Source of the DNA: Sphingobium boeckii | GTDB lineage: Bacteria > Pseudomonadota > Alphaproteobacteria > Sphingomonadales > Sphingomonadaceae | Direction: 5' to 3' | NCBI RefSeq assembly: GCF_014199215.1 | Contig: NZ_JACIJC010000005.1 | Coordinates: forward strand, 186,001 to 250,000 | Length of the DNA stretch: 64,000 nucleotides | Shown: in pieces, positions 30,975 through 61,689 of the stretch | Position numbering within the stretch: position 1 is the stretch's first letter | Layout of the letters: each line of letters opens with the position of its first letter | Translations under genes and position numbers: made by a program | Notes under the pieces: generated by a model | Database searches by the model: none | What the model was told of the DNA's origin: nothing | Seen by the model: only the letters and a program-made list of their open reading frames with translations

Positions 30975-31048
30975 CCGTTTGTCCCGAGCGTAGTCGAGGG
31001 ACGCAGGTGCAAGTGACCACGTCTCTCGACTACGCTCGGGACAAACGG
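30975..31048. repeat. 74-bp palindromic repeat, TTTGTCCCGAGCG class, copy 1
   Basis: The ends CCGTTTGTCCCGAGCGTAGT and ACTACGCTCGGGACAAACGG are exact reverse complements. The element lies between convergent genes. A second 74-bp copy is at 61616-61689 and a diverged copy lies inside a coding sequence at 38772-38865. Confidence 0.9.
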
Positions 31049-37513: not shown

Positions 37514-38590
37514 GTGGGCGACCGTCTTTATCTGGATCATGCGGCGACGACGCCGATGCTCCCCGCCGCACGGGATGCGATGGCCGGCGCATGGGCGCGC
37601 TGGGCCAATCCCTCATCGCCGCACGCCGAAGGCCGCGCCGCGCGTGCCGCGCTGGAGGACGCCCGTGCGCGCATTAAAAGCGCGCTCGGCTGGAGCGGCG
37701 ACCTGATCTTCACCAGCGGCGCGACCGAGGCGATCGCAATCGCGCTCAAACGGACGCGGAGCGACGCAGTGCTGGTCTCCGCGGTCGAGCATGACGCGGT
37801 GCATCGCGCCGCGCCCAAGGCGTTTTTTCTGCCGGTGCAGGGCGACGGCACGGTGGCGGGCCATGCGCTCACCGGGCGGCTCGGCGCACTGGGCGCGAGC
37901 AACCCGCTGGTCGTGATCCAGTCCGCCAATAACGAGACGGGCGTGATCCAGCCCTTGGCGGAATTGGGCGCGATCGTGCGCGTCAATAAAGGCGCCTTGT
38001 TCGTGGATGCGTCGCAATCGGCGGGCAAGATGGCGCTGCCGGAGGCGGATATGATCGCGGTGTCCGCGCATAAATTGGGCGGGCCGCCGGGGATTGGGGC
38101 GCTGCTGATCGGGAATCTCGGGCTGATCGATCCCGATGGCGGGCAGGAAAAGGGCTATCGCGGCGGCACGGAGAATTTGCCCGCCGCGCTGGGCTTCGCG
38201 GCCGCGCTCGAATCGTCCAATGCCTGGTTCAAGCGGGCCGAGGATCTGCGCGCGCATCTGGACGGCGCGATCGAGGCGTCTGGCGGACAGATCGTGGCGC
38301 GCCGCACGCCGCGGCTGGCGACGATCGCCGCCTATCGGATGCCGGGCATGGCGTCCTCTGCGCAATTGATCCAGTTCGACATGGCCGGGATTGCGGTGTC
38401 GGCCGGGAGCGCCTGTTCCTCAGGCACGCTCAAGCCCAGTCATGTGCTCGCGGCCATGGGCTGGGATGCGGGCGAGGCGGCGGAGGTGATCCGGGTGAGC
38501 TTCGGGCCGGACACCAGCCGCGCCGACGTCTACCGTTTCGTCGAGCAATGGCAGCGGCTGGCGCGCGAGGCGAAGGCGCGCGCGGCATGA
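37514..38590 (+). CDS. Cysteine desulfurase family protein (copy 1)
   Basis: A 358-residue class V aminotransferase. The PLP lysine is in VSAHKLGGPPG, and the persulfide cysteine in SAGSACSSGTLKPSHVL is kept, so it can probably release sulfur from cysteine as IscS/NifS does. The start GTG 37514 (VGDRLYLDHAATTPM) fits the family. It overlaps copy 2 by 4 bp and is followed by a ferredoxin gene, pointing to Fe-S cluster or thio-cofactor work. Confidence 0.9.
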   Translation: MGDRLYLDHAATTPMLPAARDAMAGAWARWANPSSPHAEGRAARAALEDARARIKSALGWSGDLIFTSGATEAIAIALKRTRSDAVLVSAVEHDAVHRAAPKAFFLPVQGDGTVAGHALTGRLGALGASNPLVVIQSANNETGVIQPLAELGAIVRVNKGALFVDASQSAGKMALPEADMIAVSAHKLGGPPGIGALLIGNLGLIDPDGGQEKGYRGGTENLPAALGFAAALESSNAWFKRAEDLRAHLDGAIEASGGQIVARRTPRLATIAAYRMPGMASSAQLIQFDMAGIAVSAGSACSSGTLKPSHVLAAMGWDAGEAAEVIRVSFGPDTSRADVYRFVEQWQRLAREAKARAA

Positions 38591-39825
38591 GCAGCGCGGA
38601 CATCTATCTCGATTATCAGGCGACCACACCGCTCGCGCCCGAAGCGCTGGCGGCGATGATGCCCTGGCTGCGCGATGGGTTTGCCAATCCGCATTCGCCG
38701 CACAAGGCGGGGCGCGCGGCGCACGCGGCGGTGGAGGTGGCGCGGGAGCGCATCCTTTCTGCGCTTCACAATTTGTCCCGAGCGACGGCTTTCGTGAGCG
38801 AAGCCGAAGGGTCGAGCGACGCGGGGACCGGTGCGGGCGGTGTCTCGACCGCGCTCGACACAAACGGAATGAAGGAAATTCCAAAGGGTCAATTGATCTT
38901 CACCTCCGGCGCGACCGAGGCGGCCAATATGGCGCTGCAGGGCGCGCTGGCGCTGGCACCCGCCGGGCGCCGCAAGATCGTGACGATCGCGACCGAACAT
39001 GCCTGCGTGCGCGATACCGCGCTATGGCTGGGTGCGCATGGCCATCAATGCGTGATGCTGCCGGTTCATGCGGATGGGCTGGTCGATCTGCAGGCTGCCG
39101 CGGCGGAGATTGACGGCGAGACCGCGCTCGTCGCGGCGATGCTGGTCAACAATGAGATTGGCGTGATCCAGCCGATAGAGGCGCTTTCCGCGCTGGCGCG
39201 TGGGCAAGGCGCGCTGTTGTTCTGCGACGCGGTGCAGGGCTTCGGTCGCGTGCCCTTGCCGGTCGATGCGTGCGACATGATCGCGCTGTCGGCCCACAAG
39301 ATCCATGGCCCCAAGGGTGTGGGGGCGCTCTGGCTGCGGGACGGCGTGGCAATCGGGCCGATCATCCATGGCGGCGCGCAAGAGGGCGGATTGCGCTCGG
39401 GCACGCTCAGCCCGGCCTTATGTGCCGGTTTCGGCGCGGCGGCGGAACTGGCGGACGCGCGGGCTGCGCCGGACGCCGCGCATGTGAGCGCGCTGGCCGC
39501 GCGGCTGTGCGAGCGTTTGAGCGGCTGGACGGTCAATGGATCCACTGACCAGCGCTATGCCGGCAATCTCAATCTGCGACTGCCCGGCCTGGATGCGGCG
39601 CGGCTGATCTCCGAGCTGCGTTCGGTCGCCTTTTCGGCGGGCTCGGCCTGCGCCAGCGGATCGGGGCGGCCCAGCCATGTGCTGTCCGCGCTCGGCCTGA
39701 CGGATGCGGAAGCGCGCGCGAGCATTCGGCTGGGCTTCGGACGCTACACCACGATGGATGAAATCGACCGAGCGGCGGCGTTGATCGCCGAGGCCGCCGC
39801 GCGGCAGGACGCGCTGGCGGCATGA
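38587..39825 (+). CDS. Cysteine desulfurase family protein (copy 2) with in-frame repeat insertion
   Basis: A 412-residue class V aminotransferase like copy 1, with lysine in LSAHKIHGPKGVG and the persulfide cysteine in SAGSACASGSGRPSHVL. Unlike copy 1 it has about 38 extra residues (61-98) between the helix ARERILSAL and the strand GQLIFTSGATEA, encoded by a palindromic repeat. The frame is intact throughout, so a full protein is made. Start ATG 38587 overlaps copy 1; its stop overlaps the ferredoxin start (ATGA). Confidence 0.9.
   Translation: MSSADIYLDYQATTPLAPEALAAMMPWLRDGFANPHSPHKAGRAAHAAVEVARERILSALHNLSRATAFVSEAEGSSDAGTGAGGVSTALDTNGMKEIPKGQLIFTSGATEAANMALQGALALAPAGRRKIVTIATEHACVRDTALWLGAHGHQCVMLPVHADGLVDLQAAAAEIDGETALVAAMLVNNEIGVIQPIEALSALARGQGALLFCDAVQGFGRVPLPVDACDMIALSAHKIHGPKGVGALWLRDGVAIGPIIHGGAQEGGLRSGTLSPALCAGFGAAAELADARAAPDAAHVSALAARLCERLSGWTVNGSTDQRYAGNLNLRLPGLDAARLISELRSVAFSAGSACASGSGRPSHVLSALGLTDAEARASIRLGFGRYTTMDEIDRAAALIAEAAARQDALAA
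38772..38865. repeat. Palindromic repeat inside coding sequence, TTTGTCCCGAGCG class, copy 2
   Basis: TTTGTCCCGAGCG (38772-38784) and CGCTCGACACAAA (38853-38865) are inverted with two mismatches, followed by CGG; ends match those of the 74-bp intergenic copies at 30975 and 61616. Inner sequence differs (GGCTTTCGTGAGCGAAGCC is an inner hairpin). It lies wholly inside the copy 2 cysteine desulfurase gene. Confidence 0.85.
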
Positions 39826-40151
39826 CTTTGGTGCGCTTTCTCAATGGCGGCGGGATCAGCGAAGTCACCGGCCAACCCGGCGACAATCTGCTGACGCTTG
39901 CCCAGAATGACGGCCAGCCGCTGGAAGGCACATGCGAGGGGCAGATGGCTTGTTCCACATGTCACGTGATCGTGGCGGCCGAGGATTTCGGGAAATTGCC
40001 GCGCGCGTCGGAAATGGAAGAGGATATGCTCGATCTGGCGGCAGGCGCGACGCGGACGAGCCGGCTGGCGTGCCAGATCCAGCTCACCGAAGCGCTGGAC
40101 GAACTCACTGTCCGCATCCCCGGCGAAGTGCGGAACATGCAGGGTCGTTGA
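39822..40151 (+). CDS. [2Fe-2S] ferredoxin, adrenodoxin type
   Basis: A 109-residue ferredoxin with the cluster motif CEGQMACSTCHV (Cys-x5-Cys-x2-Cys) and the fourth cysteine in SRLACQIQLTEALDEL, as in Fdx of the Isc system. It can supply electrons for Fe-S assembly or to cytochrome P450s. Its start overlaps the stop of the cysteine desulfurase gene, so the three genes form one unit. The other Isc components are not present here. Confidence 0.94.
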   Translation: MTLVRFLNGGGISEVTGQPGDNLLTLAQNDGQPLEGTCEGQMACSTCHVIVAAEDFGKLPRASEMEEDMLDLAAGATRTSRLACQIQLTEALDELTVRIPGEVRNMQGR

Positions 40152-40183: not shown

Positions 40184-40432
40184 ATGGCAACGATGAACAT
40201 CTCACTCCCTGATGAAATGAAAGCTCGGGTTGAAGAGCGCGTCAAATCTGGTGTCTATGCCGATGTGAGTGATTACGTCCGCGACCTGATCCGGGACGAT
40301 CTCAGCGATCCTGACCGTTGGATATCACCTAATATCGCCAGCATAATCGAAGATGGAGAGGAAAGCGAAGACAGTGAAAAAACGCTGGAACAGATTTTTG
40401 CCGAGGCGAAATCACAATATCGCTCAAGCTGA
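40184..40432 (+). CDS. parD: ParD-like antitoxin
   Basis: An 82-residue ribbon-helix-helix antitoxin: the strand MNISLPDEMK, helices RVEERVKSGVYADVSDYVRDLIRDD, and an acidic C-terminal tail (EDGEESEDSEKTLEQIFAEA) that would bind the toxin. The ATG at 40184 (MATMN) comes after GAGAAATTTTCTGTC, without a strong ribosome-binding site; the ATG at 40193 is also possible. The stop overlaps the likely start of the toxin. ParD represses its own operon in known systems. Confidence 0.88.
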   Translation: MATMNISLPDEMKARVEERVKSGVYADVSDYVRDLIRDDLSDPDRWISPNIASIIEDGEESEDSEKTLEQIFAEAKSQYRSS

Positions 40433-40713
40433 AAATCAGCAGGCGTGCTGAACGCGAGTTGATCGAAATCTGGCGCTATACGGCGCGCGAATGGGGCGTG
40501 GCGCAAGCCGAGCTTTACGAAACCGAAATTCTCGAGGCTGCGGGAATTTTGTGCAAGCACCCCAACATCGGCAGCCCACGCCTATTCAAAGATAAAGTCT
40601 ATCGAAAATTGACCGTCGGGCGGCATGTGATCATTTACCGACGCGAGCGCAGCAATATCCGTATTCTGAGCGTCGTCCATTCGGCAACGGCAGAAGCAAA
40701 GGGAAATGCCTGA
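40429..40713 (+). CDS. parE: ParE-like toxin, non-AUG start
   Basis: A RelE/ParE-fold toxin, 94 residues if read from CTG 40429 (LKISRRAERELIEIWRYTA), which is the natural family N-terminus and overlaps the ParD stop as CTGA. From the first conventional start, TTG 40459, the first helix is cut. The C-terminus RKLTVGRHVIIYRRE and IRILSVVHSA match the ParE core. No ATG, GTG or TTG occurs in frame between the upstream stop and 40459. ParE toxins generally target gyrase. Confidence 0.85.
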   Translation: MKISRRAERELIEIWRYTAREWGVAQAELYETEILEAAGILCKHPNIGSPRLFKDKVYRKLTVGRHVIIYRRERSNIRILSVVHSATAEAKGNA

Positions 40714-61615: not shown

Positions 61616-61689
61616 CCGTTTGTCCCGAGCGTAGTCGAGGGACGCAGTCATCTGCCCCAACGTGTATCGACTGCGCTCGACACAAACGG
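61616..61689. repeat. 74-bp palindromic repeat, TTTGTCCCGAGCG class, copy 3
   Basis: The left arm CCGTTTGTCCCGAGCGTAGT is identical to that of copy 1 (30975-31048) and the element has the same 74-bp length; the right arm CTGCGCTCGACACAAACGG differs at three bases. It lies between convergent genes. Confidence 0.88.

Follow-up and report, generated by a model that had tools for sequence, protein, structure and literature searches.

Repeated, in-frame insertion of palindromic repeats at one loop of a sphingomonad cysteine desulfurase

A loop in the second of two tandem cysteine desulfurase genes of Sphingobium boeckii appears, on sequence comparison, to be a repeated landing place for palindromic repeats. 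The gene lies in the stretch of 64,000 nucleotides analyzed here (the window), and its loop holds a copy of a dispersed, REP-like repeat (38772..38864, + strand) in the reading frame of the enzyme. In relatives, the same loop has this repeat, a different palindrome, or no insert. We consider it very probable that a REP-like mobile palindrome entered the surface loop in frame and was tolerated there, and that the loop was refilled independently by families that happen to be abundant.

The host gene (38587..39825, + strand) encodes an IscS/NifS-type cysteine desulfurase of 412 aa; the assignment stops at this type, with no subfamily, because the NCBIfam scores are below the subfamily cut-offs. 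Its closest solved relatives are human Nfs1 and IscS. The first, shorter paralogue (37514..38590, + strand) lies immediately upstream, and its stop codon overlaps the start of the second gene (ATGA). The stop of the second gene overlaps in the same manner (ATGA) the start of a 2Fe-2S ferredoxin-like gene (39822..40151, + strand; family by eye only). Downstream of the latter, at 40240-40713, ParD-like and RelE/ParE-like small genes are found in tandem (by eye only), likely a toxin-antitoxin pair.

An AlphaFold2 model of the second desulfurase, built with 38 sequences, has a mean pLDDT of 90, and Foldseek gives a TM of about 0.85 between the model and E. coli IscS (1p3w). Within this confident IscS fold the insert is predicted to be a disordered loop: pLDDT is <50 at residues 69-76 and 81-91 of the insert, between helix 40-69 and strand 101-106. 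Comparison of insert-bearing genes with those of empty sisters gives dN/dS of 0.20 (G000/G002, G000 being the 4.03-Mb genome of the window and the other G numbers its relatives), 0.09 (G001/G004), 0.10 (G266/G109) and 0.14 (G254/G412), values that are approximate because dS is 0.8-1.0. They indicate purifying selection on the host gene, which looks functional with its insert.

The left end of the insert, TTTGTCCCGAGCG (38772..38784, + strand), is identical to the genome-wide half-site. The right end, CGCTCGACACAAA (38852..38864, - strand), is the GTGTC variant of the half-unit and is directly followed by the canonical outer CGG at 38865-38867. Between the two (38785..38851, + strand), direct reading and fold computation reveal an expanded and rearranged centre, which contains another, short inverted repeat (CGGCTTTCG..CGAAGCCG) as well as a duplication of GAGCGA. 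The copy is degraded, in that its ends are preserved and it is not a clean palindrome. An ATG stands at 38868, just 3′ of the insert. An earlier note on this DNA had called the insert a palindromic repeat, which holds for the ends but not for the centre: the fold of the in-gene copy is not better than that of shuffled sequence (z -0.25), against z -12.1 and -7.6 for two intergenic copies. The same note had matched the ends to two intergenic 74-bp repeats, and they are indeed there with the same layout, an intact copy at 30975..31048 and a CCC/GTGTC heterodimer, like the in-gene copy, at 61616..61689 (both without assigned strand). It was also right that the frame stays open from 38587 to 39825, that the tandem first desulfurase has no insert at the matching place, and that the active-site residues are intact, the PLP lysine K238 and the catalytic C355 being invariant columns of the orthologue alignment. 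The gain of residues at one point stands as well, although the alignment with the family consensus puts it at 36 rather than the ~38 proposed. Together, these results support the note's claim that a dispersed repeat has inserted here in frame and would be read as protein.

Could the insert be an assembly error, or the gene a pseudogene or one whose translation starts after the insert? Palindromes trouble assembly, the loop copy of one relative (G226) has a gap (NN) inside, and the ATG at 38868 is immediately past the insert. Such an origin is nevertheless exceedingly improbable, given the in-frame copies in independent genomes and the dN/dS of 0.09-0.20, and an internal start would lose the invariant YLDYQATTP segment. 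The insert-bearing desulfurase is presumably made and active.

A genome search for the repeat ends, a check that the note had proposed, found the exact half-site TTTGTCCYGAGCG 142 times in the 4.03 Mb and the reversed pattern, used as control, not once; the variant TTTGTGTCGAGCG occurs 28 times. A covariance model made from 22 copies yielded at least 150 full-length matches (E from 1.6e-26 to 4.8e-17 among the matches listed), each palindrome usually being scored on both strands. Two-armed copies (dimers) account for 95 of the 105 places surveyed, with a length of 74 bp in 43 and 73 bp in 31; CCC/CCC homodimers make up 47/95 and CCC/GTGTC heterodimers 33/95. The half-unit consists of a variable 5-bp stem flanking a conserved GAGCGNAGTCGA. 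In isolation the half-unit GTCCCGAGCGAAGTCGAGGGAC (5 bp and a 12-nt loop) does not fold significantly better than its shuffles, a possible tandem G.A extension of the stem being unscored in the fold. The two sides of the stem covary between genomes and halves (GTCCC/GGGAC, GTGTC/GACAC, GCTTC/GAAGC, GTTTC/GAAAC, GCATC/GATGC), which favors a real half-hairpin. The in-frame insertion and the multicopy family are both evident at the level of sequence. Elsewhere in this genome, two near-identical loci (C2:371662, L177, and C4:466400, L209) have an identical repeat copy directly upstream of a GTP-binding gene, probably CysN-like; the pair is a segmental duplication encompassing the repeat.

The repeat is presumably mobile through some enzyme. 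The flanks of 80 copies in the source genome show no excess of direct repeats (k 1-9) that would mark a target-site duplication, and we therefore infer the insertion itself from presence and absence. The flanks of these copies are biased symmetrically, A-rich at positions 2-4 and C-rich and G-poor at positions 5-8, counted outward, with CCCNAAAA on the 5′ side before CCG and its mirror after CGG. The bias reflects either a target preference or an unrecognized outer part of the element. A Y1 transposase was rejected as the mover, since Y1_Tnp (PF01797) was absent from the five genomes searched (G000, G001, G004, G156, and G266), the control search being positive in 5 known genomes. Capture of donor flanks was likewise rejected: the nifS2 flanks of G000 match none of the other copies compared.

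The desulfurase is one of seven genes of the source genome with the element in frame. ORF and codon-composition tests on the 95 dimers, followed by NCBIfam, identified at least six further copies, in HrpB, IleS, a Sir2-type deacylase, ValS, PutA, and MtaB, in answer to the note's call for a search of other ORFs. Five of these (all except IleS) have PFVPSxVEG or PLVPSEVEG as their left part and DTNG or GTNG at the end. The IleS copy is expanded, as is the copy in the desulfurase. Several other ORFs that span copies were rejected by eye as antisense or upstream extensions with no recognized protein, and an abutting pair (L222) appears intergenic on reading. Bacterial genomes are mostly coding. 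With in-frame coding copies at ~7 of the 105 surveyed places, in a genome that is presumably no exception, the repeat seems strongly depleted in genes, a pattern that the loss of most coding insertions would produce.

A survey of 398 genomes of the family, together with the complete sets of two genera, found this repeat in the desulfurase loop of G000, G001, G266, G176, G156, G254, G373, G433, and G226. Six (G000, G001, G266, G176, G254, and G433) use frame A (RSSRAKSRD type), and G156 and G373 use frame B (VRFERSRE type). The loop holds different palindromes in G081 (TTCCGGCGTAGGCCGGAA plus CCCGGCTTTCGCCGGG), G431 (a GGGGACATGTACTTGTACGTGTCCCC pair, z -12.9) and G427 (AGTGACTGTCACT repeats), which by loop sequence appear to be three other families. 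Several loop copies fold as strong hairpins (z -5.5 to -12.9). Long inserts that are not palindromic occupy the loop in G424, G141, and G183; two of these, in the sister sequences L107 (G141) and L127 (G424), have a PW[IV]T..PWD motif in common and are possibly an old palindrome decayed past recognition. Empty relatives have in common a short GGxGGR-like loop, and the junctions of the inserts vary by several codons between species. At least 20 extra residues are found at consensus position 57 in 12 of 57 proteins, a frequency inflated because the orthologue set was partly chosen by an insert-bearing query, and more than 6 elsewhere internally in 0/57; such a query does not select against insertions at other points of the gene. 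Only C-terminal extensions exceed the loop insertions in length. In genus g75, searched whole, 7/24 genomes with a match have loop inserts of at least 20 residues.

In a 57-row orthologue tree computed without the insert, G000 is sister to the empty G002 (support 100/94) and G001 to the empty G004 (100/99), so that the alignment across relatives suggested in the earlier note finds the insert absent from the sisters of both. G266 pairs with the empty G109 and G156 with G081, and G433 and G431 are grouped with weaker support (84/83). A clade of G000 and G001 is rejected by the AU test (p 0.0009), and the tree requires a minimum of 10 changes when any insert is scored, 8 when this repeat is scored, and 12 in a multistate coding. 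These results point to several separate arrivals, and to different families in the same loop. A single ancestral insertion followed by many losses, with gene conversion by the resident family making the copies look local, would accommodate the frame and the CCC/GTGTC heterodimer subtype shared by G000 and G001, and conversion would also make copies resemble the variants of their own genome, as they do. The shared subtype is weak evidence, because such dimers are 33 of the 95 copies. The single insertion has more difficulty with the two reading frames and the three other families in the loop, with the different palindrome in G081, the sister of G156, and with yet another in G431, which groups with G433. 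Excision would moreover have to restore the short GGxGGR-like loop of the empty relatives, and G004 is without a copy by the pattern used. We find it quite improbable overall; for the G000/G001 pair within genus g1, one older insertion and two losses are conceivable.

Half-site counts by a broad pattern are 39 in G001, 18 in G002, 0 in G004, 76 in G156, and 155 in G266. G156 is rich in GCTTC units genome-wide and has the same variant in its nifS2 and valS copies; such a match to the resident variant agrees with an origin in the local pool, or with conversion by that pool. The contrast between G004 and its sister G001 reflects either wholesale loss or recent spread of the repeat family between sister species.

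The desulfurase is not the only protein with such a loop. For the ValS site of G000, 299 genomes were searched and 12 loci were read. Ten of these, that of G000 among them, have this repeat in the loop; the two others (G226 and G176) have a CCCCTCCCCTTCAGGGGAGGGG palindrome there. Matches that span the ValS site also occur in more than 40 genomes outside the 12 loci read. The MtaB loop (L224, L249, L250) has this repeat in G000 and G005, an unrelated, C/G-rich palindrome of the CCCTCTCCCCCTAAAGGGGG type in G001 (peptide PSPPLGGEG..RPSPPKGGEG), and is short in G002 and G004. One loop is thus common to unrelated palindrome families in at least three unrelated proteins. This bears on the possibility that the desulfurase loop is a hotspot at the DNA level, preferred by the enzyme of the element or by the replication machinery, a possibility raised by the repeated hits in the loop and by the symmetric flank bias within 8 bp, which implies some preference for a target or an extended element. 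We regard it as unlikely, as unrelated palindromes would need an identical target, the junctions are several codons apart between species, and three unrelated genes behave alike. A DNA target effect could still lie behind part of the recurrence, which we attribute mainly to tolerance of the protein.

That inserts recur in a single loop of a single paralogue, and that several copies keep strong hairpins, might also suggest that the insert was recruited, the loop or an mRNA hairpin having a selected role, for example in tuning desulfurase output or partner choice. We hold this highly doubtful: sisters are empty, unrelated peptides fill the same loop, the hairpin of the G000 copy is gone, and the insert is predicted to be disordered. 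For the copy in the desulfurase gene of G000, the z of -0.25 leads us to reject selection on an mRNA hairpin as the driver. The earlier note had spoken of a repeat domesticated as protein sequence; a gained function is unsupported, with sisters empty, with sequence, frame and family varying, and with predicted disorder. “Tolerated” fits the insert better than “domesticated.”

The account we prefer, tolerance of an inserted mobile palindrome, can be put in steps. A REP-like palindrome, made of two inverted half-units (about 74 bp, in ~100 genomic places), would have inserted into the surface loop of the desulfurase. The gene would have survived because the net length preserved the reading frame, and because the element has an open frame where it is read. 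The roughly 36 added residues would then form a disordered loop. The ATGA overlap suggests translational coupling with the next gene, so that an out-of-frame insertion would have a cost downstream as well. As the loop would be one of few tolerant places, insertions elsewhere would be lost and the loop filled repeatedly, each time independently by whichever palindrome family abounds in the genome. After arrival a copy would decay, as it seems to have done in the desulfurase gene of G000.

That palindromes can lie inside genes is already known, and passages of PMC3733652, PMC10969869, and PMC4316617 document intragenic REPs and RPEs. The earlier note was mistaken in holding that only the RPEs of Rickettsia are well described in coding sequence, since Di Nocera et al. 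(2013; PMC3733652), in the passages cited here, list REPs of the GTAG and CGTC superfamilies within ORFs of numerous species. The listed ORFs include genes for tRNA synthetases and pseudouridine synthases in two sphingomonadales, S. alaskensis and E. litoralis, and one case is given of a shared site, in the recB genes of two Xanthomonas species. According to the same passages, those REPs resemble our element in forming head-to-head dimers, hetero- and homodimers alike, in being mostly intergenic with some in frame inside ORFs, and in often adding 20-30 residues. The CGTC REPs also have no dedicated transposase (here PF01797 is absent from G000, G001, G156, and G266), are predominantly head-to-head dimers (here 95 dimers in 105 places), and have CGTC (or TGTC/CCTC) at an end of every unit, as do the inner ends of the consensus here (..GGGACGT / ACGTCCC..), although an unpaired motif is doubtful here because GTC overlaps the stem. 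They differ, as described there, in stem and loop (8-9 bp and 4-5 nt, vs. 5 bp and 12 nt here) and in a CCA-like tail (here the outer end is AAACGG), and because of these differences we do not file the element, REP-like as it is, as a CGTC REP. Those passages of PMC3733652 do not report that unrelated families refill a single loop in different genera.

RPEs (Ogata et al., 2000, 2002; Matsutani et al., 2013, PMC3767692) are likewise in-frame coding palindromes; their sites are solvent-exposed and shared between orthologues, and the biotin ligase genes of Wolbachia and Rickettsia have different palindromes in the same region (PMC3767692). RPEs are however 100-150 nt long and belong to small AT-rich genomes, whereas the present repeat is 74 bp and belongs to GC-rich free-living sphingomonads, in which a single loop accommodates at least four palindrome families. 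With the REPIN/RAYT systems of Pseudomonas and others the element shares inverted pairs of short units and a dispersed, non-autonomous population, but not the Y1_Tnp/RAYT (none in four repeat-carrying genomes) or a terminal GTAG tag. Like MITEs it is short and non-autonomous, with terminal inverted repeats of about 29 bp; unlike them, it has no target-site duplication detected in 80 copies and no parent insertion sequence identified. Among the papers searched in full text, none had the core sequence of the element or dealt with Sphingopyxis intragenic palindromes. What is new is the recurrence of unrelated families in one loop.

This hot-loop pattern merits further attention. It amounts to a replicated experiment of nature, in which different mobile palindromes have independently filled the same protein loops and empty sisters serve as controls. 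It allows one to ask whether coding palindromes are only tolerated or at times of use, how fast they turn over, and which enzyme moves such repeats. For annotation the pattern carries a warning: loop peptides such as PFVPSEVEG..RVSTSLDTNG would be translated mobile DNA. We lean toward the view that a few loops of sphingomonad housekeeping enzymes (desulfurase, ValS, MtaB, and probably more) are landing pads for unrelated in-frame palindromes. If so, disordered loops in these bacteria would grow and turn over through the traffic of mobile DNA, and not by ordinary indels.
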